Under the pieces are notes generated by a model, which saw only the letters and a program-made list of their open reading frames with translations, did not search any database and was not told the DNA's origin. From a virus, in IMG/VR virus record IMGVR_UViG_3300015192_000033, positions 1 to 20,995 of that record: 20,995 nucleotides of DNA; one strand, given 5' to 3'. Each line of letters begins with the position of its first letter. Position 1 is the stretch's first letter. The position numbers and the translations under genes were made by a program. Positions 267 through 19,004 of the stretch are shown one piece after another.

Positions 267-716
267 ATGTCCGCATCTAATTCTTTAGAGTCAAGCTTGC
301 TTCTGCTACTTTTCAATAACACCGCCCTGGCCAACGTAGGCAACGCCGCGGGCCTGCAGCCGTCCGGTGTGGCGGGCTCATTCTTCGTCGCGCTGCACAC
401 CGCCGACCCAGGCGAGGCCGGCGACCAGACCACCAGCGAAGCGACGTACACCAGCTATGCCCGTGTGGCTGTGGCGCGCTCATCGGCCGGCTGGACCGTC
501 TCGGGCACTGCGCCCACCCAGGCGGCCAATGCGGCGGCGGTGACGTTCGCTCAATGCACTGGTGGATCGAACGTCATCACGTATTTCTCAATTGGCCTGA
601 TTACGTCGGGTGCATCGGTCATCGTGGCCAGTGGGGTGCTCACGGCTTCACTCACGGTGAGCAATTTAATTACCCCGTCGTTCGCCATCGGAAGTTTGGT
701 CGCGACTTTGGATTAA
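267..716 (+). CDS. small phage structural protein with TADPGEAG signature
   Basis: A protein of 149 residues. An AAGGAG Shine-Dalgarno at 255-260 sits six bases before the ATG. The sequence has the layout of a common siphophage protein: an N-terminal helix (residues 5-16, ESSLLLLLFNNTA), then FVALHTADPGEAGD (about 40-53), then a YARVAV strand (about 64-69) and alternating beta strands to a C-terminal LVATLD. Proteins of this type are usually annotated as hypothetical or minor tail/fibre proteins. The family resemblance is from memory of the TADPG and YxR motifs. A head or tail accessory role in the virion is inferred from context. Confidence 0.7.
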   Translation: MSASNSLESSLLLLLFNNTALANVGNAAGLQPSGVAGSFFVALHTADPGEAGDQTTSEATYTSYARVAVARSSAGWTVSGTAPTQAANAAAVTFAQCTGGSNVITYFSIGLITSGASVIVASGVLTASLTVSNLITPSFAIGSLVATLD

Positions 717-1042: not shown

Positions 1043-1858
1043 GTGCCTAGCGCCGCGCGCGAGGCGCTGCTTGACCTGTTGGCCACCGCTAATTTGTGGC
1101 AGCGGGCGGCCTTGCCGGCTGTCAAGGCAGATCGGCCAACAAAGGAACCTGGCCGGGCCGATAAGCTGCGGGCCGAGGGTAAGCTCGCGGCGGTGGTACA
1201 GGCATTTTTCGCGCGAATGACGAAGAAAGTCACCGTCAAACTCAATAGCGCCCCGCCTAAGCAGGCAGCCGTCAAGGCTGATTACACCGACACCACATTC
1301 GACAGCGAGTTTTTTACCGATGACGAATTTGAGAGCGCACTGGAAAAAGTCCTAACCACGGCCGCTCAGGGTGGAGTGCTCCAGTTCACTGACATGGTGG
1401 CACTGGAAATAGACCAAAGCGCTGTGAACAAGGAAGCCGCCGCCGCGATCAAGACCTACACTTTCGATCTCGTGAAGAATCTGGATGACAGCTCACGCAA
1501 GTCACTGCGCCTGGCAATCAGCGACTTCATCACTTCGCCGGGCATGACGATGGCCGACGTGATTGATCGGCTGCCGTTCACGGAATCTCGGGCGTCGCTG
1601 ATTGCCACGACCGAGATAACCCGCGCATATTCCACCGGGCAGTCAATCGCCGGTGAGGCCGTCGCCATCGCCTGGCCGGATGTGCCAGTGACGAAGATGT
1701 GGCATACGAATAACGATAGCCTGGTGTGCCCTATCTGCGACCCGCTGGACGGAACCGAGGCGCCGCAGGATGGTTCATTCGATGATGAATATGACGCTCC
1801 GCCGGCCCATCCGGGCTGCCGCTGCTGGGTGAGCTACCGGACCAACATCAATGGCTAA
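1043..1858 (+). CDS. minor head protein, Mu gpF / SPP1 gp7-like
   Basis: A protein of 271 residues starting at GTG 1043, with AGGA at 1030-1033 nine bases upstream. The C-terminal third matches the phage minor head morphogenesis (Mu gpF-like) family. It has RASLIATTEITRAYSTGQ (residues 183-200), then W220...D225, C229-P-I-C232, D236-G, and the closing HPGCRCW (256-262). The four cysteines and the histidine could bind a metal. The N-terminal part is helical and acidic and lacks clear motifs. Family members associate with the portal and are found in few copies inside the head. The portal gene is presumably upstream, outside the window. The gene overlaps the next one by 8 bases. Confidence 0.88.
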   Translation: MPSAAREALLDLLATANLWQRAALPAVKADRPTKEPGRADKLRAEGKLAAVVQAFFARMTKKVTVKLNSAPPKQAAVKADYTDTTFDSEFFTDDEFESALEKVLTTAAQGGVLQFTDMVALEIDQSAVNKEAAAAIKTYTFDLVKNLDDSSRKSLRLAISDFITSPGMTMADVIDRLPFTESRASLIATTEITRAYSTGQSIAGEAVAIAWPDVPVTKMWHTNNDSLVCPICDPLDGTEAPQDGSFDDEYDAPPAHPGCRCWVSYRTNING

Positions 1859-2315
1859 GATATCGATCAAAGTCACCGGCTTGGACAAGGTCCAGGCGGC
1901 CATGGCCAAGTTTCCGCAGGAGATCGGCCGCTACACGGCCGCCGCCGGCGTTGAGGTGGGCAATGAGATACTGGACACGCGCGGCGTGCGGCTCTACCCG
2001 CCCGCCGGGCCGGCAAACGCGCCGCCGCCGCCTTACTACATACGCGGGCAGGGCACGCAGTATGCCACGCGCAACTCGGGCAACAGTCAGCGGCTTGGCA
2101 CACAATTCTACGTGGATGCCTCGGCTACTTCGTACAAGACCACCATCGGCAACCGCGCCAGCTATGCCGGGTACGTGGTTGGCGAGAATCAGGCGAAGGC
2201 CATGGGGCGGATTGGCTGGCGGCGGATGTACGATGTGGCGATTGAGAAGCTAGAGCCGATCCGTGCCATCTATCAGGGCTGGATCGACAAGCTCATCAAG
2301 GATATGGGGCTGTGA
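1851..2315 (+). CDS. HK97 gp10-like neck/tail-completion protein
   Basis: A protein of 154 residues. The opening ISIKVTGLDKVQAAMAKFP is typical of the gp10-like tail-completion family (a beta strand, then a 'G-L-D-K-V' helix). The middle holds LYPPAGPANAPPPPYYIRG, and the C-terminal part has WRRMYDVAIEKLEPIRAIY followed by a helix ending at the stop. In family members this protein helps join the head to the tail. Here it lies before the capsid gene instead of after the connector, which is an uncommon order. A second neck candidate sits at 6743-7201, so which of the two does the gp10 job is uncertain. Confidence 0.62.
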   Translation: MAKISIKVTGLDKVQAAMAKFPQEIGRYTAAAGVEVGNEILDTRGVRLYPPAGPANAPPPPYYIRGQGTQYATRNSGNSQRLGTQFYVDASATSYKTTIGNRASYAGYVVGENQAKAMGRIGWRRMYDVAIEKLEPIRAIYQGWIDKLIKDMGL

Positions 2316-2485
2316 CCGACCGCGAGTTTGTTCTCGAAATCCGGCATGGCCTGATTATCATTATGCGGGCCTGCATCAAGCGTTACGCGATGGCCTGGCG
2401 CGATTTCCTGCCATTGGACGCAGCGGCGACGGTATTCCCCGCCCCATACGCGGCGGGCGTTGACGTTTTACAGAAACAGTCTTAG
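2312..2485 (+). CDS. 57-residue phage protein
   Basis: A short frame starting at a GTG whose last two bases form part of the previous stop (GTGA overlap). This signals translational coupling. The product begins MTDREFVLEIRHGLIIIM, followed by a basic stretch (RACIKRYAMAWRDFLP), and ends KQS. It forms an amphipathic or weakly hydrophobic helix at residues 8-30 and has one cysteine. The -35 and -10 of the promoter noted below lie inside its last codons. I do not recognise it, but the coupling and unbroken direction make it a plausible gene. Confidence 0.55.
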   Translation: MTDREFVLEIRHGLIIIMRACIKRYAMAWRDFLPLDAAATVFPAPYAAGVDVLQKQS

Positions 2486-2608: not shown

Positions 2609-3829
2609 ATGCCAGGTGCGCGACATTCCAAATCCGACCAGCAGCACCTCGACCAGGCGGCGGCCCATATGGCGTCGGCGGGCGTGAACATGCCCGGCAA
2701 GATGGCCCCGCCCGCCAAGTCCGCCGCCAAGAGCATTGAAATGGTGCGCTGCCTTGTCACCTGCCAGACCTGCCAGGCGGCCTGCCGCTATTGCATCAGC
2801 GCTTGCCAGTCATGCCCCAATAGCCTGTCTCCATCTCACGCCGCCTGTGTGGCTGCCTGCCAGGTGTGCGCCGATGCGTGCGCGGCCTGCCAGACGGCGG
2901 CTGATGCGTCCGGCCTGGACAGCCCCGAGTGCATGGCGGCCTGCGCGGCTTGCCAAGCGGCCTGCGCCGCCTGTGCGTTGGCCTGTATCGCCTGTGCGGT
3001 CGAGTGCGACCACTGCGCCTGGGACTGCCAGAACTGCGCCGGGGCGTGCGCGTCGTGCGCGCGTGACTGCGGCGACTGCCTGGGTGGCGCGGCGGACGCG
3101 GACGCCGGGGCCGAGGATGAGATGGACGCGCCGGGCATGGGTGCCATGATGAGCGCCTATCAGAAGGCGGTCGGTGAAAGTATCGCTGCCAAGGGGCTGA
3201 CGCTCAACTACGTCAAGGCCCTGCACCTGCCGCGCGATGAAGAGTTCTTTGCTGACGTTCTGGCTGTCAAGAGCGTTGGCCACGACCGGATCAAGGGCTA
3301 TACATTTCTGTGGGGCAACGAAGAACTGACCGACGTTGAAACGGAGTTCTTCACCCGTAAGTCCGACTTCTGGGATACCCAACTCGGCAAGACCGCGCGC
3401 CCGCTGACCTGGGACCACGCGCAAGACCCCGACACAAAATCAGCGCCCGTCATTGGGCAGATAGACGAGTTTGGTGATGACGCCATCGGACGGTGGTATA
3501 TCGCCCAACTCGACCGCAATCACAAATTCCGCAAGGCTGTGGACGCATTGGTGAGCAAGCGCGCCGTTGGCACGTCTAGCGACAGCGCCAATCAATACGT
3601 CATCCGCGAGAAGACCAAGAGCGGCGCGGTCTGGCTGGCACAGTGGCCCTGGTTTTGCTCGGCCCTGACAACGACGCCCGCCGAGCCGCGCATGTTGGAT
3701 GTCGGCTCCCCCTACTGGAAGTCAACCGGACTGGCTGAGACAGTCGCCCGTATGGGCTCACGGCGCTCTGGACAGAGCGACCGGCTGGCGCAGCTTGACC
3801 GAGAGCTTGAATTGCTGGAACTGAGTTAA
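2609..3829 (+). CDS. HK97-type prohead protease with N-terminal Cys-rich (Csp/DUF326-like) domain
   Basis: A protein of 406 residues. Residues 48-157 contain 27 cysteines at strictly alternating 4- and 3-residue steps (C48, 52, 55, 59, 62, 66, 69; 80-94; then 15 from 108 to 157). This is a heptad pattern that places every Cys on one helix face, as in the four-helix copper-storage Csp/DUF326 proteins. Residues 160-180 are an acidic linker. Residues about 195-365 resemble the HK97 prohead protease (U35). There is LTWDHAQDP with candidate His270, then VGTSSDSA with the candidate Ser at 323-326, and the closing strand ALTTTPAEPR (352-361). The C-terminus is a charged helix. The protease should cleave scaffold domains of the next gene's capsid protein. 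The ATG at 2609 has no good Shine-Dalgarno. An internal ATG at 3122 follows GAGGA and could yield the protease alone. Confidence 0.82.
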   Translation: MPGARHSKSDQQHLDQAAAHMASAGVNMPGKMAPPAKSAAKSIEMVRCLVTCQTCQAACRYCISACQSCPNSLSPSHAACVAACQVCADACAACQTAADASGLDSPECMAACAACQAACAACALACIACAVECDHCAWDCQNCAGACASCARDCGDCLGGAADADAGAEDEMDAPGMGAMMSAYQKAVGESIAAKGLTLNYVKALHLPRDEEFFADVLAVKSVGHDRIKGYTFLWGNEELTDVETEFFTRKSDFWDTQLGKTARPLTWDHAQDPDTKSAPVIGQIDEFGDDAIGRWYIAQLDRNHKFRKAVDALVSKRAVGTSSDSANQYVIREKTKSGAVWLAQWPWFCSALTTTPAEPRMLDVGSPYWKSTGLAETVARMGSRRSGQSDRLAQLDRELELLELS

Positions 3830-3841
3830 CGGAGAAACGCT

Positions 3842-5266
3842 ATGGCAAACGAATTGCAAACGAACCTGAAAGCCGCTGTCACCCGCGCGCGCGCCATTTC
3901 CGACGGCGTCTCGGCCAAGGGCGGCGCCTGGTCCGAAGACGACCAGAAGGCTTATACCGCCGCGATTGAATCGGCCAAGTCACTCAAGGCCACCGCGGAG
4001 AAGACCGCCGAGTTGGACGACATCTCCAAGTGGATGAGCGAGCCAACCGGTGAAAGCGCCGTCAAGACCGGCTGGGCCGGCGAGGCGCTGCCCCACGAAG
4101 GCGACATTACCGAAGTCGCACAGGAGCCCGTGTCCGTCACGATCAACCCCACCAGCGGCGTCAAGAGCGTCTCGGGCGGCGAGTTGTACGCGCTGGGCAA
4201 GCTGGGCGAGGACAAGCTCAAGGCGCTCAAGAGCGGCGCTTACAAGGACGCCTTCGTCAGTTACTTGCGCATCATGGCCCGCCCCAACGGCGACCTGCGC
4301 GCCATGAAGGGCGAGGCCATGAAGGTGCTGCAGGAAGGCATCGACAACCAGGGCGGCTTCTGGGTGCCGCCGGACGTGCGTAACGAATTGGTCAAGAAGA
4401 TGGCCACCATCACGGCTATTCGCCAGTTCGCCTACAGCTTCACGACCGGCTCGGATATGGTGACGTTCCCGAAGGTGGTCTACACCACCAACGACCAGTA
4501 CACGTCTGGTGTGCGCTTCTCGTGGACGGCGGAAGCGCCGGCGGCGGATATCGCCGAGGCCACTAACCCCATTGCCGGCAAGGTGCAAATCCCGGTCGAG
4601 ACGGCCATCGCCTCGCTGACCGTGACGCGCGCATCCACCGAAGACAGCCAATTCGACATTCTGGGCTATCTGTCGATGAACCTGGGCGAGGCCTTCGCGC
4701 TGGGCGAAGACGACGCCTTCATCAACGGCGACGGCGTCGGCAAGCCGCAGGGCATCCTGAATCATGCGAATGCCACCGTGGCCACCGGCTCGGGCGGCAT
4801 GTACGTGGCCAGTGGTAGCGCGGCGGCGATTGCCTGGGGCGTGGACGGCGTCAAGGGCGTCACCGGCCTGGAAGGCGCGCTGCCGCCGCAGTATGAGAAC
4901 AACGCCCGTTTCGTGGCCGCCAAGGCCACCTATGCGGCCCTGCGCGCGCTCAATACCGGCGCGGCCGGTATGCAGTGGACTAGCGAGGACTTCTATCCGA
5001 ACTTCCGCAACGGCTACGCGCCCAACCTGCTGGGCTATGCGGCGGTGCGCGACCAGTTCGTGCCCGCCATCGCGGCCAACAGCTACAGCGCGATTTTCGG
5101 AGATCTGCAAGGCTACTACATCGCCGACCGGGTCGGGCTGAGCATCGAAGTGCTGCGCGAACTCAAGGCGCTGCGCGACGAGGTCGTGATCTACGCCCGC
5201 AAGCGGCTGGGCGGCCAGCTCGTCCACGACTGGAAAGTCAAGCTGCTCAAGATCGCTGTTTCATAA
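3842..5266 (+). CDS. HK97-fold major capsid protein
   Basis: A protein of 474 residues with GGAG at 3831-3834 before the ATG. Residues 1-75 are a Lys/Ala/Glu-rich helical region like the scaffolding delta domain that the prohead protease removes. The region around 160-180 has LQEGIDNQGGFWVPPDV, the typical start of the phage capsid domain. TFPKVVYT, WTAEAPAADIAEA and the E-loop/axial segments follow. FALGEDDAFINGDGVGKPQGIL (about 286-307) is a hallmark of HK97-family capsids. The end is LRALRDEVV-like, then RKRLGGQLVHDWK. It is somewhat longer than HK97 gp5. It directly follows its protease, as in HK97-like phages. Confidence 0.95.
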   Translation: MANELQTNLKAAVTRARAISDGVSAKGGAWSEDDQKAYTAAIESAKSLKATAEKTAELDDISKWMSEPTGESAVKTGWAGEALPHEGDITEVAQEPVSVTINPTSGVKSVSGGELYALGKLGEDKLKALKSGAYKDAFVSYLRIMARPNGDLRAMKGEAMKVLQEGIDNQGGFWVPPDVRNELVKKMATITAIRQFAYSFTTGSDMVTFPKVVYTTNDQYTSGVRFSWTAEAPAADIAEATNPIAGKVQIPVETAIASLTVTRASTEDSQFDILGYLSMNLGEAFALGEDDAFINGDGVGKPQGILNHANATVATGSGGMYVASGSAAAIAWGVDGVKGVTGLEGALPPQYENNARFVAAKATYAALRALNTGAAGMQWTSEDFYPNFRNGYAPNLLGYAAVRDQFVPAIAANSYSAIFGDLQGYYIADRVGLSIEVLRELKALRDEVVIYARKRLGGQLVHDWKVKLLKIAVS

Positions 5267-8992: not shown

Positions 8993-11140
8993 ATGCCACC
9001 CTTAAATATTGAGATTACCGCCAGCGTGGACCAGGCCGTGCGCGATCTAGGCCTGGTCAACGACAAGTTTGACGCCATGAAGAAGGTCAACCAGGACGCC
9101 GCCGGCGCGCTGGGCGTGTTTGGCGTCTCACTGACCGCGCTGAGTAACCCCATGACGGCCGTGGCCGGGGCGATCAAAGACAGCATCGATACCACGCTCG
9201 CATGGGGGCAGACCATCGACAAGCTCTCGCGCTCCAGCGGCGTGAGCGCCGCCGAGACCAGCAAAATGGCGGTGGTGCTGGGCGACTACGGGATCAAGGT
9301 GGACAGCCTGGATAAGGTAGTCAAGACGTTCACTAAGAATGGGCTCGAATTCAACCTGGAGACGATCAAGAAGCTGGCCGTCCAGTATCAGGCCATCCAA
9401 GACCCCATCAAAAGGAACGAGTTCGCGTTCCACAATTTCGGCCGCGCCGGCCTGGAGATGAACGAGATACTGAGCAAGTCACCGGCCGAGTTGGAAGCGG
9501 TGGGCAACGCCGCCATGTACAGCGGCAAGATTATGAATGAGCAGGGCGTGCAGAGCATACAGGAGTTTGGCGTCAAGACGGCGCAGCTCACCGACAAGCT
9601 GGACGGGCTAAAAATCGCCATCGGGGGGCCGCTGGTGGGTGCGCTATCCAGCGCGGCGGACGGGTTCAAGGGGGTGTTTGCCACCGCCAACGCGGTCGGC
9701 ATCGCCATCGAAGCTCACACCGGGATCATCACTTACGACGAGGCCGCGTTGCGGGCCAACGCGGCGGCCAATGGCGATCTGCTGGCCATGTACCATCAGG
9801 TAACGCCGGCCATCCAGGAGCAGACCAACAAGCTGCAAGACGATATTGTGGCGCACCAAACGTCAGCGCGGGTCTACTCCGACGCGGCGAGTATCATCGC
9901 CGGCTACACCGGCAATGTTAACTTGCAGGCCACATCGCAATACAACGCCAAGACCGCCACCGATGCGGCCAACGCTTCAATGAAAAACCAATCCGACCAA
10001 CTCCTACTCAGCGCGGCTACGTCGGGAGCGGTGACCAGCGCCGAACAAACTTATGCGGGCGTGATCGACGGCAACGCCGACAAGATCGGGAATCTGCGCG
10101 ATGAAATCGCCAAGATGACGGCCGCCAATGGAGAGAGTTTTACGGTCGTCACCAAGGGAACGCACACGCAGGAGGACTATAACCTGGCCGTTGACCGGGC
10201 GGCGCTGGCGCTGGACAAATACACCAACCACGGCAAGGTGTCGGCGCAAGGTCTGGAAGGCTTACGCATCGCCTCCGAGTCGGCCCAAAACGCGGTTGAC
10301 AAAATGGGCGCGTCCATGGGCTCCACTGCATCGGGAACGGCTGACTACACCACAAAGATTGGGGCAGACCAGGCGGCGCTCGATCTTCTGACCAAGGCCA
10401 ATGATGACGCGGCTGCGGCCATGGCCAAGTCAACCGGCGCGTTTATCTTGCAGCAGGTAGCGGCGTCGGCCGGGCCGGAAGTGCAATTGCAGCTGGCGCA
10501 CGCGCTAGGGCTGGTGGATGACAAAAGCTACAACCTGGCGCTGAATGTCCAGTCGCTGACTAAGGCCTGGGACTTGAACCACAACGGAATGATTGACGCC
10601 GGCAAAGAAGCCGACGGTCTATCCGTGGCGCTGAAAGGTTCCCAGACGGCCGTTGAGCAAGCCGCCGGTGTTATTCCGAAACTCGTTAGCCACACGGACG
10701 AACTGGCCGGATCGGCCGCCACCGCGGCCGGAAACGTGGACCTGTTGCGCGACGGTATCAACGGCTTGCATGATAAAACAATCACGATCCATACAATCAA
10801 CACCACCGATAACACCGGGGACTCCAGCAGTCAACATAACTATGTGGACGCCAACGGTGTTTACCACTATGCGTCTGGCGGCAGCTTCATCATCCCACCT
10901 GGCTACAACGAGAATTTCCCCATTGGCCCTAATGGCGGCGCATCCTCCGGCGAGCGCGTCACGGTGACACCCGCCGGCCAGACGGCCGGCCAGGCGTCCG
11001 GCCAGGGCGTCACGATCCACGTCGACGCCCGCGGCTCCGTTGACCCGTCGGCTGTGGAAGCGGCCGGTTACCGTGGCGCGCTGCGCGCCATGCAGGCGGC
11101 CGGGTATCGCGCTGACCAGATAGGCAGAATGGGAGTCTAA
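8993..11140 (+). CDS. tail tape measure protein
   Basis: A protein of 715 residues, the longest gene here. The start ATG is three bases after the chaperone stop. The N-terminus (IEITASVDQAVRDLGLVNDKFDAMKKV) and the long Ala/Gly/Lys-rich helical body are typical of tape measure proteins. Around residues 40-60 is a weakly hydrophobic stretch (LGVFGVSLTALSNPM). At D527 there is a DLNHNGMIDAGKE loop like a calcium-binding EF-hand loop. Residues near 600 read KTITIHTINTTDN, and the end reads VTIHVDARGSVDPSAVEAAGY, the usual tape-measure C-terminal pattern. Tape measures set tail length at about 1.5 angstrom per residue, so a tail of roughly 100 nm is expected. The stop overlaps the next ATG (TAATG). 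Confidence 0.9.
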   Translation: MPPLNIEITASVDQAVRDLGLVNDKFDAMKKVNQDAAGALGVFGVSLTALSNPMTAVAGAIKDSIDTTLAWGQTIDKLSRSSGVSAAETSKMAVVLGDYGIKVDSLDKVVKTFTKNGLEFNLETIKKLAVQYQAIQDPIKRNEFAFHNFGRAGLEMNEILSKSPAELEAVGNAAMYSGKIMNEQGVQSIQEFGVKTAQLTDKLDGLKIAIGGPLVGALSSAADGFKGVFATANAVGIAIEAHTGIITYDEAALRANAAANGDLLAMYHQVTPAIQEQTNKLQDDIVAHQTSARVYSDAASIIAGYTGNVNLQATSQYNAKTATDAANASMKNQSDQLLLSAATSGAVTSAEQTYAGVIDGNADKIGNLRDEIAKMTAANGESFTVVTKGTHTQEDYNLAVDRAALALDKYTNHGKVSAQGLEGLRIASESAQNAVDKMGASMGSTASGTADYTTKIGADQAALDLLTKANDDAAAAMAKSTGAFILQQVAASAGPEVQLQLAHALGLVDDKSYNLALNVQSLTKAWDLNHNGMIDAGKEADGLSVALKGSQTAVEQAAGVIPKLVSHTDELAGSAATAAGNVDLLRDGINGLHDKTITIHTINTTDNTGDSSSQHNYVDANGVYHYASGGSFIIPPGYNENFPIGPNGGASSGERVTVTPAGQTAGQASGQGVTIHVDARGSVDPSAVEAAGYRGALRAMQAAGYRADQIGRMGV

Positions 11141-12604: not shown

Positions 12605-14146
12605 ATGCTCCAAGTCGGCCTCTACGACACGTCTTCTGGCTCGCTCATCCTGGACATCTCCCCGCGCGCCTCGGGAGTGGAGATCATCAACGGCGAGCAC
12701 GGCTTCGGCACGCTGACGGCGTTCGTGAAAATGGCGCTATGGGAAGCGTTCATGCTGTACGACCGGCCGGGCATCCCGCACGTGCAAGTCACCGAATACG
12801 GGCTGAGCGTCTGGGAAGGCCGGCTGGAAGACGTGGCCATCGTCGCCGGCGGGGTGCGGCTGACGGCCTTCGGCTACTGGCGCGCGCTGTCGGATTTTCC
12901 GTACACATCGCTGTGGTCCACCACCAGCGTGGCTGGCTGGCGGCCGATCATCAAGTCAGAGCTAGGCAGCCATGACCCGCAGATGTACACCTTCGACACA
13001 AATAACCGCCTGTACGTCGCCACTACCAAAGGGAACGTTTACGGGAACGGTGTCAACCAATTCGAGTTTACCTTCGCGGCGCCCAATGGCGGCGATGCGA
13101 CCATCGTAGCCGTAAGCTTTAGTTATTCGATGCTGCTGCCGGTCAACTGGTCCATGCGGCTGCGCAGCATGGACGAAGGCTTTACAACTGTTACCAATCA
13201 GAACACCATCGTGGCCAGCGGCATTCTTCAAACTGGCACGGTGACAGTCACGTTCACCGGCCAGAACCGGCTGGGCATTCTGATCTTCAACAACACCGGC
13301 GCTAACAGCACACCCGCCGGAGAGACGGGTATTAACTTCCTGGAAATCACCAATCTGCGCGTCAAGGCCAACACGGCCAGCACCATTAGCGCCGATCTGA
13401 TCGCCAACCGGCTGGCTGCCTATGTCAATAGCAGCAACCCGGCCCAGATGTCGGCCAGCACGGCGCTAATCAGCTCACCCGGCGTCGACCTGACCGACGA
13501 GGTGTATCAGGACGCCTACCCAGCCGACGTGCTCGACCGCCTGGCGCGGCTCGGCGACAACTCATCCCCGGTGGCGCTGTATGAGACCGGGGTATGGGAA
13601 GGGCAACGGCTCACCTTCCAGAAGCGCGGCACAACCGCTAAGACCTGGTATGTGGACATCTCGACGTTGGAGCTTGAGCGCACAATCGACGCGCTGCGCA
13701 ACAGCATCTATGCCGATTACCAGGAGGCCTCGGGCCGCACGCTGCGCACGGCCGCCAGCACCGACAGCGATAGCCGCAGCCGCTACGGACTAATCCGTCA
13801 GCGGGCGGTCCAAACATCCACCACCAGCAGCACGCTGGCTGGGACCCAGCGCGATGCGGCCTTGCAGGACGGCAAGGACCCAGCCCCGCGCATCGCGATT
13901 GCCTTTCAGCGCGTGTATGACGGCGCCGGCTCACTCTATCCGCTGTGGGCTCCCCGTGCTTGGGATAATTTTGTCGTGAGAAATCTGCCGGCCACGCTCT
14001 CAACGAGCCTGGACCGTATCCGGCAATTTCGCGTGATTGAAGCGCGCTACACGGTCGATACCAACACACTGGCGGTGACGCCTGAATCGTTTATGCCAAG
14101 CCTGGCGGTGCTGACGGCCCGGAACGCGGCGGGGATAAAACGGTGA
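12605..14146 (+). CDS. tail hub / Tal-like protein
   Basis: A protein of 513 residues starting four bases after the previous stop. Residues 1-110 are beta-rich (LYDTSSGSLILDI, GTLTAFVKMALWEAFMLYDRPGI, LSVWEGRLEDVAI). The middle has a jelly-roll-like insertion. Near residues 320-420 is VALYETGVWEGQRLTFQKRG, then TWYVDISTLELERTIDALRNS, and SGRTLRTAAS. These appear in tail-hub proteins of siphophages that follow the Dit gene. The C-terminal region has LPATLSTSLDRIRQFRVIE, another recurrent pattern. Hub proteins close the tube and often carry cell-wall enzymes. Here the muramidase is a separate downstream gene that overlaps the hub stop (GTGA at 14143-14146). Confidence 0.68.
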   Translation: MLQVGLYDTSSGSLILDISPRASGVEIINGEHGFGTLTAFVKMALWEAFMLYDRPGIPHVQVTEYGLSVWEGRLEDVAIVAGGVRLTAFGYWRALSDFPYTSLWSTTSVAGWRPIIKSELGSHDPQMYTFDTNNRLYVATTKGNVYGNGVNQFEFTFAAPNGGDATIVAVSFSYSMLLPVNWSMRLRSMDEGFTTVTNQNTIVASGILQTGTVTVTFTGQNRLGILIFNNTGANSTPAGETGINFLEITNLRVKANTASTISADLIANRLAAYVNSSNPAQMSASTALISSPGVDLTDEVYQDAYPADVLDRLARLGDNSSPVALYETGVWEGQRLTFQKRGTTAKTWYVDISTLELERTIDALRNSIYADYQEASGRTLRTAASTDSDSRSRYGLIRQRAVQTSTTSSTLAGTQRDAALQDGKDPAPRIAIAFQRVYDGAGSLYPLWAPRAWDNFVVRNLPATLSTSLDRIRQFRVIEARYTVDTNTLAVTPESFMPSLAVLTARNAAGIKR

Positions 14147-15990
14147 CTTCGATCCTCGGCGTCGACGTCAGCCACTACCAGCCGCCCACGCTGCCCTGGC
14201 GCGAGTGGGTCGCGGGCGGGCTGAAAGTTTGCTGCGTCCAACTAACCCACGTTGACTACCCAGAAGGCAACGCCACGGCGCACCTTCAGGCGGCCGCGGC
14301 GGCGGGAGTGCCTTCAATTTCCTGTTACCACTGGCTGGGCGGCGGCGGCGCGAAGGAGTGCCGCTACTTCCTGTCGTTCCTGCCGGCGGGGGCGATGTGG
14401 GCGATGGTGGACGTGGAGGACCCGCGCGCGACCGCCGTGTCTCTCGCGGAGTTCTGCGCCTGGTGGGACGCGCACGAGACGCGGACGCTGGTGCTGTATG
14501 GCAATAACCAGCTCGCGGCGTTCGTGGAAGCGCGGCCGGAGTTGCGCAAGTACCAAGTTTGGTACGCAGCCTATCCGACATTCCCCAACCCCTGCACCGT
14601 GCCGCCGTTCGACAAGCCGCGCAACGTGCCGGCCAGCATCGCCGGGCAGGTGATAGCCTGGCAATATGCTGGCGATAATGGCCGGCTGCCACCTTACGCG
14701 GGCGCGATAGATTTAGATATTTGGTATTCAGTCCCAGGAGTAACTAGCCCTATGACTAGCCCATCCACCGGCTGCCTGATCGGCTTCCACACACAGGGCA
14801 ACAGTGACGCCGTGCCAATCGCGGCTGACTACGCCGCGGCCGGGGCGCGCATTGCCATCATGCTGTCTGACGAGGACGGCGGCAAGGCCATCGACACGCA
14901 GAACACCGTCAAGACGCGCATCACCCGGCTGCAATTCGTGGAGGCCGGCGACGATCACGACTTCGAAGGCGGCGGCGCGGGGCGGCTGGGCTGGTCAGAG
15001 GAGAAGGTGAACCGCTACCTGGCCGGCATCGAGAACATGCTGACCGTCCGGCTGGGCATCGGTGAACTGAACGCGGCCACGCACCTGCAGCTAGGGTGCA
15101 ACGAGTGGGATGCACAGGACGTGGGCGAGTGGCTGCGCACCTTTGACATTCTGGCGCGGGTAGTGGACAAGGTCAATGAAGTCAGCGCCCGGCTGATAGC
15201 GACCAAGGGCCTGGCGCACCCGCTGCGGCTGGCGCCGCCGGCCTTCAACGCGGGCACGCCAAAAACGTGGGCCATGTATCAGGCGATCGCGGCACATCCG
15301 ATCTGGCCCAAGCTGGCAGCCCAGGGCGGATGCATCCTGTTTCACGAGGGTATCGGCTTCAGCCAGCCGTTCGATTGGGGCGAGAACATGCCAGTGGAGC
15401 CGGGCGCGCCGCAAGTGGCGGGCGCGGGCCTCGTCAACTTCCGCGCCTACAACTTGCTTGACCTGCTGGCCCAGCGCGGGCTTGAGATTGATTGGGCCGT
15501 GGGAGAGTGGTATGACGGCCGCAAGCGTGCCGACGATGTTGAGGCGCGGGTTGACAACTTGATCCGCCATGACCGGCTGCTGGCCGGGTCGAAGTGGGCC
15601 CGGCGCTGCCTGGGCTATTGCACTTATGAGCTCACCAACGACCCACAGTCGCCGTGGTGGGAGCAAGACGCAACTCAGATTTGGAAACACCCCAGGTGGA
15701 AAGCCTACTGCGTTTCTGTAAAAGACCGTATCAATGGAATGGAGAATGACGATATGCCTCAGCCACTCTATCACGCCCGCACCCTGATCGACCTCATCCT
15801 GCGGGACGCCTCGGGCGCCGTCGCCGCCGACCCGCTGGCGCAGTCGCCGGACGGCCATGTGGTGCTCAAGGGCACCACGCTGCACATCTACCAGACCGGC
15901 GTGACGGCCGGCGGGTTCACCAACCGCGCCACGGTGACGGCAGACGGAAAGTCAGTTTGGGGCATCGCCAGCGCGATTGTGCGCATCTGA
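14143..15990 (+). CDS. multidomain endolysin / tail lysin: GH25 + second glycosidase-like domain + SH3-like tail
   Basis: A protein of 615 residues starting at GTG 14143, overlapping the hub stop. Residues 1-196 are a GH25 muramidase: GVDVSHYQ at the start, VDVED (89-93) with the catalytic acidic pair, and AWQYAG (172-177) before IDLDIWY. GH25 enzymes cut the MurNAc-GlcNAc bond of peptidoglycan. Residues 204-530 look like a second TIM-barrel glycosidase of clan-A type: LIGFHTQGN opening, CNEWD with candidate acid/base E321, and AVGEWYDG with candidate nucleophile E455. This second call is an inference from motifs. Residues 538-615 end in a small beta domain (HVVLKGTTLHIYQTG) that could be a wall-binding module. 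There is no signal peptide. Two internal ATGs with Shine-Dalgarno sequences fall on the module boundaries. Confidence 0.85.
   Translation: MTSILGVDVSHYQPPTLPWREWVAGGLKVCCVQLTHVDYPEGNATAHLQAAAAAGVPSISCYHWLGGGGAKECRYFLSFLPAGAMWAMVDVEDPRATAVSLAEFCAWWDAHETRTLVLYGNNQLAAFVEARPELRKYQVWYAAYPTFPNPCTVPPFDKPRNVPASIAGQVIAWQYAGDNGRLPPYAGAIDLDIWYSVPGVTSPMTSPSTGCLIGFHTQGNSDAVPIAADYAAAGARIAIMLSDEDGGKAIDTQNTVKTRITRLQFVEAGDDHDFEGGGAGRLGWSEEKVNRYLAGIENMLTVRLGIGELNAATHLQLGCNEWDAQDVGEWLRTFDILARVVDKVNEVSARLIATKGLAHPLRLAPPAFNAGTPKTWAMYQAIAAHPIWPKLAAQGGCILFHEGIGFSQPFDWGENMPVEPGAPQVAGAGLVNFRAYNLLDLLAQRGLEIDWAVGEWYDGRKRADDVEARVDNLIRHDRLLAGSKWARRCLGYCTYELTNDPQSPWWEQDATQIWKHPRWKAYCVSVKDRINGMENDDMPQPLYHARTLIDLILRDASGAVAADPLAQSPDGHVVLKGTTLHIYQTGVTAGGFTNRATVTADGKSVWGIASAIVRI
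14736..14754 (+). promoter_or_regulatory. possible internal ribosome binding site in the lysin (second module)
   Basis: AGGAG (14736-14740) lies 11 bases before an in-frame ATG at 14752 (residue 204), exactly where the GH25 domain ends. The local DNA turns AT-rich. The other two frames carry several stops here. A 412-residue second product, or a relic of gene fusion, would explain it. Confidence 0.42.
15741..15756 (+). promoter_or_regulatory. possible internal ribosome binding site in the lysin (C-terminal module)
   Basis: GGAG (15741-15744) sits nine bases before an in-frame ATG at 15754 (residue 538). The product would be the 78-residue C-terminal module alone, as known for some endolysins that make free wall-binding subunits from internal starts. 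Confidence 0.42.
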
Positions 15991-17446: not shown

Positions 17447-17764
17447 CTAATCCTGTTGGCGCGGCGGTGTCAACTTATTGTGCGCCAGCCATGCCGCCCA
17501 CAGCAAACGGAACAGCGGCTTGTATGCGATGCGCGGCTTTGCCGGTGCATGGGGCAACCTGTCCCTGATAGCCTTCGTGGCTGGCCTGTAGCCGTGTATG
17601 GCCACCTGATAAGCCATTCCCGACGAGATGCCATATTTCGCGCCTACGGCTCTCCAAGTCCCCAGAAGGTCATAGTCAGCCAACAGGCACCTCCTAATCG
17701 CGTTACGAGGCTTAGTATGGATTTGTACCGTCTGACGTCGGGGCGGTGACTTGTAGCCGGTCAT
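17447..17764 (-). CDS. helix-turn-helix DNA-binding protein
   Basis: A protein of 105 residues with an ATGA overlap to the RNA ligase stop. Residues 25-70 read RCLLADYDLLGTWRAVG, AKYGISSGMAYQVAIHGY, PATKAIRDRL. The segment W-x-x-V-G-x-x-Y-G-I-S-x-G-x-A-Y-x-V is a helix-turn-helix like those of small phage proteins. The N-terminus is basic (YKSPPRRQTV), and the C-terminus (RLLWAAWLAHNKL) is hydrophobic and amphipathic. There is no Shine-Dalgarno, so translation probably depends on coupling. Its targets are unknown. Confidence 0.65.
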   Translation of the reverse strand: MTGYKSPPRRQTVQIHTKPRNAIRRCLLADYDLLGTWRAVGAKYGISSGMAYQVAIHGYRPATKAIRDRLPHAPAKPRIAYKPLFRLLWAAWLAHNKLTPPRQQD

Positions 17765-18657
17765 GGCGCAGGCTCAAACGCCAGTTTGGCTAGTTCGTCC
17801 TTGTACCATTCCGCCAATCCCGCCGTGACGCCGCGTTGGATGGTGGGCCAATAGTGCTTGAACAGGGCGTCCCGTATCTCCGCCTCGTATTCTTTCAAGA
17901 TGTCGGCGGGCACTTCGCAGATGAGCAATCCAATGTCACGCGGCGAACCTTCCAGCTTGCCGGCCTCGCGCAAGTGCTGGACAGCCTTTTGATAGCGGGC
18001 GTCGGTCTTGTAAGTCTCGATTAGCTGCTGGGTGAAATCTTTGCCGCTGGGATTGCGCTCTTTCCAGTCTTTCGCGTTGCGCTCCTTGAAATCCTCGGCA
18101 ACGTATTTGCCCACCGCCACTTTCTTCTCAGGCGTGAACAGCGCGTAGTTCTTGACCACCACGCCCTCAATGCGCGTGCCACCCAGGACGCTTTCGGCTT
18201 CGAGTAGCGCCTTGAACATTTCCAAGCTGGTGACAGCGCCATCGAAAACGCAGGGTACACATTCCAGGCCCAGCCGGCCAGCCTCGGCGTGCTTGTCGGC
18301 GTAGCTCAGATATTGCTCCAGGCCGGAGCAAACGTCGAACACAATCAGATTGTGCGCGGGCACGCGGGCGTAAGCCAGGGTGTTGTGTTTGGGCTTTTCT
18401 AGGTATTCACACCGATAGACCCAGTCCGGATGCAGCGGCAGACTGCGCGCCGTGGCTACTGCTGTCTCGAACATCTTTTCCGGCGCGTCAATGTTGAGCT
18501 GCCGGCCCTTGCTCCGGCACTCCAATTGACCGTCAATCAGCGCCATGCTGAATTGGCTGCCGTCCACTTTCTCCTCGACCAACACCGGGCCGCTGAATAG
18601 CTCGGCTATGGCCTTGTGACCTATCGCGTACACACTTGGGTAAGAATAAATTGGCAT
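17761..18657 (-). CDS. RNA ligase (Rnl2-like nucleotidyltransferase)
   Basis: A protein of 298 residues. The frame stays open upstream, but ATG 18657 has AGAGGA with six-base spacing and begins the recognisable domain. Residue K30 in EEKVDGSQF is the adenylated lysine of motif I (K-x-D-G). YRCEYLEKP (81-89) is motif III with E84. LIVFDV (104-109) is motif IIIa. IEGVVVK (163-169) is motif IV. KVAVGKYV (179-186) is motif V. The helical C-terminal part follows. The ligase would seal 3'-OH/5'-phosphate ends in RNA, as in phage tRNA repair that counters host anticodon nucleases. No polynucleotide kinase partner is visible in the window. RNA rather than DNA ligase is inferred from the short size and the motif spacing. 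Confidence 0.85.
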   Translation of the reverse strand: MPIYSYPSVYAIGHKAIAELFSGPVLVEEKVDGSQFSMALIDGQLECRSKGRQLNIDAPEKMFETAVATARSLPLHPDWVYRCEYLEKPKHNTLAYARVPAHNLIVFDVCSGLEQYLSYADKHAEAGRLGLECVPCVFDGAVTSLEMFKALLEAESVLGGTRIEGVVVKNYALFTPEKKVAVGKYVAEDFKERNAKDWKERNPSGKDFTQQLIETYKTDARYQKAVQHLREAGKLEGSPRDIGLLICEVPADILKEYEAEIRDALFKHYWPTIQRGVTAGLAEWYKDELAKLAFEPAP

Positions 18658-18659
18658 AG

Positions 18660-19004
18660 TTATCCTCTCGTCTCCTCGCCGCTGGCCGCCGGTGGCAGCG
18701 CGGCGGCACGTTCCCGCTCGTCCCGGCGTATCACGTCGGCATGACACAAATCAGGACCATACAGGCGGCCCGTTGCATGGGTCGTGTGATAGAAATGGCC
18801 CCTGTCGGCATCGTATTCGGCTGGCGTCCAATGTGGATTGCCACAGTACAAGCACGCAGCCGCGCAATCCCGCTCCAGTTGTTCCGCCCAGCCAACGGCG
18901 AGGCCAGCGGCGAAGCCATTTGCATAAGCGGCGCGTGTTAGTTCGTGTTGGTCTTCAAGTGTCGCTATCTGTTCCAAGGTCAAACCATTTACAATCGTTT
19001 TCAT
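18660..19004 (-). CDS. small Cys/His protein, possible zinc ribbon
   Basis: A protein of 114 residues. The ATG overlaps the upstream stop (ATGA), and the Shine-Dalgarno AAGGGCG lies inside the 167-bp repeat. Residues 8-30 are helical. The core has C47, C51, C54 (CAAACLYCGNPHW), then HFYHTTHATGRLYGPDLCHADV with H70, H73, H76 and C87, likely a zinc site of ribbon type. The C-terminus is charged and Ala-rich. It sits two bases before the ligase gene. No family name is known to me. Confidence 0.62.
   Translation of the reverse strand: MKTIVNGLTLEQIATLEDQHELTRAAYANGFAAGLAVGWAEQLERDCAAACLYCGNPHWTPAEYDADRGHFYHTTHATGRLYGPDLCHADVIRRDERERAAALPPAASGEETRG

Follow-up and report, generated by a model that had tools for sequence, protein, structure and literature searches.

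A copper-storage-like cysteine bundle, predicted by modelling, in frame with the prohead protease of a phage

A single gene of an uncultured phage encodes, in one reading frame, a domain with 27 regularly spaced cysteines and a prohead protease. The gene lies in the window, by which we mean the whole 20,995-nucleotide stretch of viral DNA analysed here (IMG/VR virus record IMGVR_UViG_3300015192_000033, positions 1 to 20,995). Modelling suggests that an in-frame bundle of the copper storage protein (Csp) type, with a nearly all-cysteine core, has taken the place of the variable N-terminal region of the protease or been added to it. The gene has the following parts, all on the plus strand, with helices as predicted by AlphaFold2:

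2609-3829, plus strand: fusion gene, ATG at 2609, 406 residues (N-terminal motif, Csp-like four-helix domain, linker, HK97-type prohead protease)
2615-2647, plus strand: N-terminal motif GARHSKSDQQH, residues 3-13, in common with relative L128 (GARHSKTDQEH)
2714-2809, plus strand: predicted helix 1, residues 36-67, with cysteines 48, 52, 55, 59, 62 and 66; C69 lies just beyond
2750-3079, plus strand: the 27 cysteine codons of the domain, C48 to C157 (23 TGC, 4 TGT)
2831-2911, plus strand: predicted helix 2, residues 75-101, with cysteines 80, 84, 87, 91 and 94
2924-3004, plus strand: predicted helix 3, residues 106-132, with 7 cysteines; the turn that follows, residues 133-136, holds C133, H135 and C136
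3017-3094, plus strand: predicted helix 4, residues 137-162, with cysteines 140, 143, 147, 150, 154 and 157
3095-3193, plus strand: linker rich in Ala, Asp, Glu and Gly, residues 163-195, mostly of low pLDDT, with a short predicted helix at its end
3194-3826, plus strand: prohead-protease domain, with the H270 codon at 3416-3418 and the TSSDS serines at residues 322-326

Listing the residues bore out the original prediction: residues 48-157 include 27 cysteines, which follow a 4/3 spacing that is interrupted twice (70-79, 95-107). The coordinates given for them, 2752-3081, marked the right region but were 2 bases off. The cysteines fall into three blocks (48, 52, 55, 59, 62, 66 and 69; 80, 84, 87, 91 and 94; and the 15 from 108 to 157), and their spacing alternates strictly between 4 and 3 except at the two breaks, of 11 and 14. 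Prolines 70, 75 and 106 lie inside the breaks, and the protein sequence confirms that the final run of 15 contains none. In 20,000 shuffles of the same composition, the longest 4/3 run averaged 2.8 and never exceeded 8, against 15 in the protein, and spacings of 3 or 4 account for 24 of the 26, where 5.6 would be expected. As both values far exceed the shuffles, the pattern is not due to chance.

An in-frame stop codon, TGA at 2603-2605, stands just 5' of the ATG. The frame is open across both flanks of the cysteine region, and both flanks match L128 in that frame. Third-position G+C is 0.83 in the cysteine region and 0.86 in the gene for the major capsid protein (MCP), and G+C by codon position tracks that of the neighbouring genes. 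This resemblance to the capsid gene, together with the use of 23 TGC and 4 TGT codons, indicates that the cysteine region is coding sequence in the local style. Expansion of a DNA repeat was ruled out as its source, as Tandem Repeats Finder saw only patches of 1.9-2.6 copies.

The original prediction had read the N-terminal region as a helical bundle with buried cysteines, and AlphaFold2 modelling supported this reading. With the full protein, for which the alignment covered the protease part only, the N-terminal domain was predicted to form four helices (residues 36-67, 75-101, 106-132 and 137-162). Four helices were also obtained with the cysteine domain alone, modelled as a single sequence (mean pLDDT 90.1, pTM 0.82), and the five models were alike (pLDDT 88-90). 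A Foldseek search with the predicted domain gave a TM score of 0.89 to the Streptomyces lividans Csp (6ei0). VIA alignments to Csp structures gave Z scores of 18.8-19.3, with an rmsd of 1.5 Å over 117 of 119-120 residues and 32% identity; unrelated bundles scored 14.1 or below, and the best structural matches were all copper storage proteins. In every predicted helix the cysteines lie on one face (resultant length 0.85-0.88, about 0.3 by chance; P of 0.005 or less). The predicted model is that of a four-helix-bundle monomer of Csp topology; its many cysteines include CxxxC pairs and, judging from the 4/3 spacing and their position on one helix face, point towards the core. The last run, of 15 cysteines over 50 residues, is as regular and proline-free as first described, but it is not predicted as one helix: the models show two antiparallel helices, with a turn at residues 133-136. 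On these models, the cysteine domain very probably has a Csp-like fold. Against this, the AlphaFold2 training set includes Csp structures, and a heptad pattern of cysteines may by itself evoke the Csp fold.

The sequence of the domain says less about kinship. A phmmer search of the PDB ranked a Csp first, covering residues 44-160 (E 1.2e-4), and hhalign of the domain against nine Csp3s gave 95.8% and an E value of 8e-9. Membership of the DUF326/Csp sequence family, which the original prediction had implied, was not borne out: the domain scored 12.2 bits with PF03860 (DUF326), below the curated cut-off of 20.4, and gave no match in a second run, in which all nine ordinary Csps used as controls passed at 36-65 bits. 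The composition correction of HMMER is large for this domain. Against a Csp profile the domain scored 9.0 bits, a value reached by none of 500 full shuffles, by 19 of 500 shuffles with the cysteines fixed, and by the reversed sequence, at 10.0 bits. Because sequences that keep the cysteine positions, and the reversed sequence, can score as high, the sequence likeness to Csps appears to be a likeness of cysteine pattern. The three conserved histidines at the open mouth of Csp3s seem to be represented by H135 only, in the turn between helices 3 and 4; H77 lies near the loop between helices 1 and 2. Descent from a Csp is possible, on the strength of fold and cysteine pattern. We call the domain Csp-like, and it should work like a Csp.

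That the C-terminal half is a maturation protease, as originally proposed, found support by a less direct route. The fusion protein itself had no protease match in Pfam, PHROGs or NCBIfam, and on its own this half is too diverged for those models. One relative, however, matched PHROG_80 (head maturation protease; E 7e-7), and another, L151, matched PF04586 (Peptidase_S78) at E 0.0098, below the cut-off. The AlphaFold2 model of the protease part was of moderate confidence; in a fold search of BFVD, the leading named matches were prohead or head maturation proteases, with E values down to 4.7e-9. H270 (in LTWDHAQ) and S323/S326 (in GTSSDS) are invariant across 24 aligned rows; by analogy with HK97, we take this histidine and the TSSDS serine to be the likely catalytic pair. 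The MCP gene (PF05065) starts 12 bases 3' of the fusion gene. Relatives, fold and the adjoining MCP gene all support assignment of this half to the HK97-type prohead proteases.

Relatives were collected through capsid and protease searches. The protease part of L128 is about 70% identical to that of the fusion protein, and its N-terminal motif is identical at 9 of the 11 positions of residues 3-13. From sequence, the motif marks the N-terminal region that is native to proteases of this family. The fusion looks genuine because family sequence flanks the cysteine domain on both sides in one frame; an assembly error joining two genes, which the original prediction had named as a danger to its reading, was examined, and the L128-like sequence on both sides speaks against it. 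Between motif and protease the relatives differ, and by sequence comparison this N-terminal region is a variable slot. It holds a Cys-poor, apparently helical segment of approximately 80 residues in L128, L129/L138 and L151/L152, and zinc-ribbon-like CxxC...CxxC motifs in L147/L148, L157 and L284. In L003 the insert is much longer. The helical segment of L128 was considered as a Cys-poor Csp and rejected (hhalign, 1.4%). The protease genes with zinc-ribbon-like motifs, and that of L003, are located as follows:

L148, 5668-6636: protease ORF with zinc-ribbon-like motifs
L157, 5824-6609: protease ORF with zinc-ribbon-like motifs
L284, 2958-3788: protease ORF with zinc-ribbon-like motifs
L003, 3796-5976: protease gene, 726 residues, with an insert of roughly 300 residues between N-terminal motif and protease that contains a CPDC motif

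In three further records (L132, 5611-8073; L160, 2532-5036; L162, 5353-8322) the protease is apparently fused, in one ORF, to several hundred extra residues; in L132, the remainder beyond the protease reads like a major capsid protein.

Among the relatives examined, the Csp-like bundle was seen in one phage only. No second cysteine domain was found among over 30 protease relatives, by cysteine pattern or with DUF326, nor among the distant protease relatives found in 9 of 400 Chloroflexota genomes. The INPHARED phages contained no second Csp fusion, and Csp matches in phage records fell in scaffolds without annotation, in records of very small size or in those from Acinetobacter. A search of viral_contigs with the whole fusion protein gave no match. 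Scans of viral_contigs for 9 and 13 cysteine codons in 4/3 spacing returned, among the matches listed, nearly only low-complexity or stop-broken frames; these scans were not exhaustive, and other copies may exist. A tblastn search of plasmids and phages with the cysteine domain gave no match, probably owing to the low-complexity filter. The view that no such fusion had been described agrees with the literature searched and with the reference phages, neither of which yielded a head protein of a phage joined to a copper-storage domain.

The neighbourhood of the fusion gene is that of a head operon. The main genes of the window are:

267-716, plus strand: fibre-like gene (Gp80), followed by a small gene
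1043-1858, plus strand: Mu F-like head gene
1851-2315, plus strand: 154-residue gene, an HK97 gp10-like connector by position, also in relatives, and by look; no Pfam match
2312-2485, plus strand: 57-residue ORF with a GTG start that overlaps the preceding stop codon; not a ferritin, in the slot held by ferritin in about ten distinct relatives
3842-5266, plus strand: major capsid protein (PF05065), directly 3' of the fusion gene, with further genes of the structural block beyond
8993-11140, plus strand: long gene in the tape-measure position, with a weak PHROG match (E 0.049)
14143-15990, plus strand: endolysin of glycosyl hydrolase 25 type
17761-18747, minus strand: RNA ligase (PF09414), among minus-strand genes 3' of the endolysin

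A strong hairpin at 2549-2592 (folding energy of -27 kcal/mol over 72 nt; z about -2), followed by TTTCGTTTTT, lies shortly 5' of the protease start. It resembles a terminator or attenuator that would separate the head genes upstream from the genes for protease and capsid; a simple terminator scan did not flag it. One relative lies within a Chloroflexota MAG, which, with the distant protease relatives in Chloroflexota genomes, hints at a host in this phylum.

In relatives, a ferritin gene follows the counterpart of the gp10-like gene. We searched 35 records, relatives by protease or by capsid, and found a ferritin gene (PF00210) in the head operon near the protease in 11 of them, representing about ten distinct phages (L002, L003, L137, L143/L144, L148, L150, L153, L155, L156 and L157), or roughly half of the relatives with a complete upstream region and readable head operon. 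The ferritins score 62-96 bits (cut-off 24.5) and were located as follows:

L002, 1-498: ferritin gene, PF00210 over cut-off
L003, 3314-3796: ferritin gene, PF00210 over cut-off
L137, 4293-4763: ferritin gene, PF00210 over cut-off
L143, 3542-4042: ferritin gene, PF00210 over cut-off
L148, 2404-2880: ferritin gene, PF00210 over cut-off
L150, 5241-5747: ferritin gene, PF00210 over cut-off
L153, 801-1289: ferritin gene, PF00210 over cut-off
L155, 4970-5665: ferritin gene, PF00210 over cut-off
L156, 3776-4267: ferritin gene, PF00210 over cut-off
L157, 4524-5027: ferritin gene, PF00210 over cut-off

The gene lies directly after the gp10-like gene or adjoins its position, zero to three genes 5' of the protease, and its start often overlaps or abuts the preceding stop codon. 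Read from alignment columns, the positions of the di-iron site (Glu, ExxH, Glu, Gln) are kept in all ten aligned ferritins. Ferritin occurs in more than one branch of the protease-domain tree, and is therefore either old in the group or was gained repeatedly. The record of the window has no ferritin match anywhere, and none was found in the short loci around the distant protease relatives of the 9 Chloroflexota genomes. Among reference phages, ferritin matches fell in five unannotated records, with no close parallel. The recurrence of ferritin suggests a link between metal storage and the heads of these phages.

In HK97, the protease becomes part of the procapsid, cleaves itself and exits. By the mechanism that we propose, the bundle would fold in the infected cell and bind many Cu(I) ions between its core thiolates, possibly, by analogy with Csps, up to about one per cysteine or roughly 20-27 per copy. 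Since the protease is incorporated into the procapsid, it would bring in the attached bundle with the bound metal. If the protease then cut itself within the acidic linker (residues 163-195), the bundle could be freed from it at maturation. The phage might benefit because, while heads assemble, reactive copper would be removed from them or from the cytosol, or because copper would be carried with the virion. Binding of metal in vivo is likely; for the complete sequence of events, in which a Cu(I)-binding bundle is taken into the procapsid by the protease and released when the linker is cut, we regard the chances as even. To our knowledge, no role for copper has been shown in any phage head. 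Csp3s bind about 20 Cu(I) per monomer on core-facing cysteines and release it slowly (PMC5171941).

Several other readings have to be weighed against entry of a copper-loaded bundle into the procapsid. The bundle could act in the infected cell, as a sink that shields replication against copper stress or damage of the Fenton type; the protease would then be no more than a highly expressed carrier. Csp3s are cytosolic, and expression of a Csp3 in E. coli increases copper tolerance (reviewed in PMC7558416). The ferritin genes of the relatives, moreover, are free-standing and unfused to head proteins, so that loading of the capsid is not required. It would be odd, however, to fuse such a sink to the one head protein that, as known from other phages, is packaged and then consumed, when a free gene would be simpler, and we consider this reading unlikely. 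Still less probable, in our view, is that the thiols form a redox or metal switch that prevents protease activity before the head is finished, through a disulfide or release of metal. The domain does precede a protease whose timing matters, and zinc-ribbon-like cysteine motifs occupy the same site in L147/L148, L157 and L284; but a switch needs few cysteines, not 27 at nearly every core position, and most relatives have no cysteine in the N-terminal slot.

About the same low standing is given to a purely structural bundle that scaffolds the protease or targets it into the shell, with cysteines as core filler and metal irrelevant. The apparently helical, Cys-poor segments at the same place in L128, L129/L138 and L151/L152 are consistent with such a role, but the segment of L128 shows no relationship to Csps and so is not a Cys-poor version of the same domain; besides metal binding, we know of nothing that favours cysteine at nearly all a/d positions, which also counts against this reading. 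We prefer a role in metal handling to a plain helical scaffold mainly because ferritins adjoin the head genes of the relatives. That a host csp gene was joined to the phage protease gene during assembly is extremely improbable. The fusion does come from a single contig, and no second copy was found, but with family sequence on both sides of the cysteine domain a single gene would have to contain two false joins, both in frame; codon usage does not vary along the gene, and the domain is unlike every ordinary Csp tested.

Compared with Csp1 and Csp3 (DUF326, PF03860; for example S. lividans Ccsp, 6ei0, B. subtilis Csp3, 5fig, and M. trichosporium Csp1 and Csp3), the phage domain is predicted to share the four antiparallel helices, of equal size, the CxxxC pairs, the cysteines on the inner face of all four helices and a histidine in the turn between helices 3 and 4. 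It differs in failing the DUF326 model, in apparently lacking two of the three mouth histidines and in being fused to a head protease that retains its native N-terminal segment. It also differs in its 27 cysteines, against 13 in Csp1, 18 in MtCsp3 (both as quoted in the original prediction) and 19 in BsCsp3 (PMC5171941). If it binds copper, the bundle exceeds the characterised Csps compared here (13-19) in number of cysteines. The protease resembles the HK97-type prohead proteases (Peptidase_S78, PHROG_80) in fold, in the invariant histidine and serine and in its place before the MCP gene, and differs in bearing the N-terminal cysteine bundle and in having diverged beyond the family models.

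Phage capsids have been proposed as the source of ferritin-loaded encapsulins, whose shells have the HK97 fold (PMC8346489). As in encapsulins with ferritin-like cargo, including the Flp-fusion encapsulins (PMC8346489), HK97-fold shell genes here adjoin a gene for a putative four-helix metal-handling protein; in encapsulins they may also be fused to it. In this phage, however, a Csp-like bundle is joined to the protease and not to the shell, and ferritin is a separate gene in the relatives. Encapsulins are HK97-fold shells without phage morphogenesis or lysis genes, and the locus does not fit this description, with its Mu F-like head gene, weak tape-measure match (E 0.049) and endolysin. In the Vi01-like phage Sajous1, gp217, encoded near a tail completion gene, was assigned as a ferritin by a single Phyre-based call and discussed with the Ferrojan Horse idea (PMC10892097). 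It is likewise a metal-storage protein in a phage structural-gene neighbourhood; unlike it, the ferritins described here are Pfam-positive and were met repeatedly, in the head operons of about ten phages that are related to one another, and storage of copper would be a new element. Apart from that report (PMC10892097), the literature searched held no published parallel to a head-operon ferritin.

The cysteine bundle and the ferritins of the relatives together lead to a testable claim, namely that head assembly in some phages includes the handling of metals, which bears on virus-metal interactions and on the origin of encapsulins as HK97-fold shells loaded with ferritin-like cargo. A broader idea, which we hold only tentatively and think rather doubtful, is that in one clade of tailed phages, whose hosts may be Chloroflexota, metal storage has become part of head assembly or adjoins it, as a separate ferritin gene of the head operon in many lineages and, here, as a Csp-like bundle tethered to the protease, with virions that carry iron or copper. 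If true, this would be a phage counterpart of the ferritin-loaded encapsulins and a route from phage head to nanocompartment.

Cysteine-rich ORFs of a different make were also seen. L211 (minus strand, 384-residue ORF) and L017 (minus strand, 172-residue ORF) contain long CTCDCNY/CNCNYCTC repeats, with up to 54 cysteines, and are another kind of Cys-rich phage protein.
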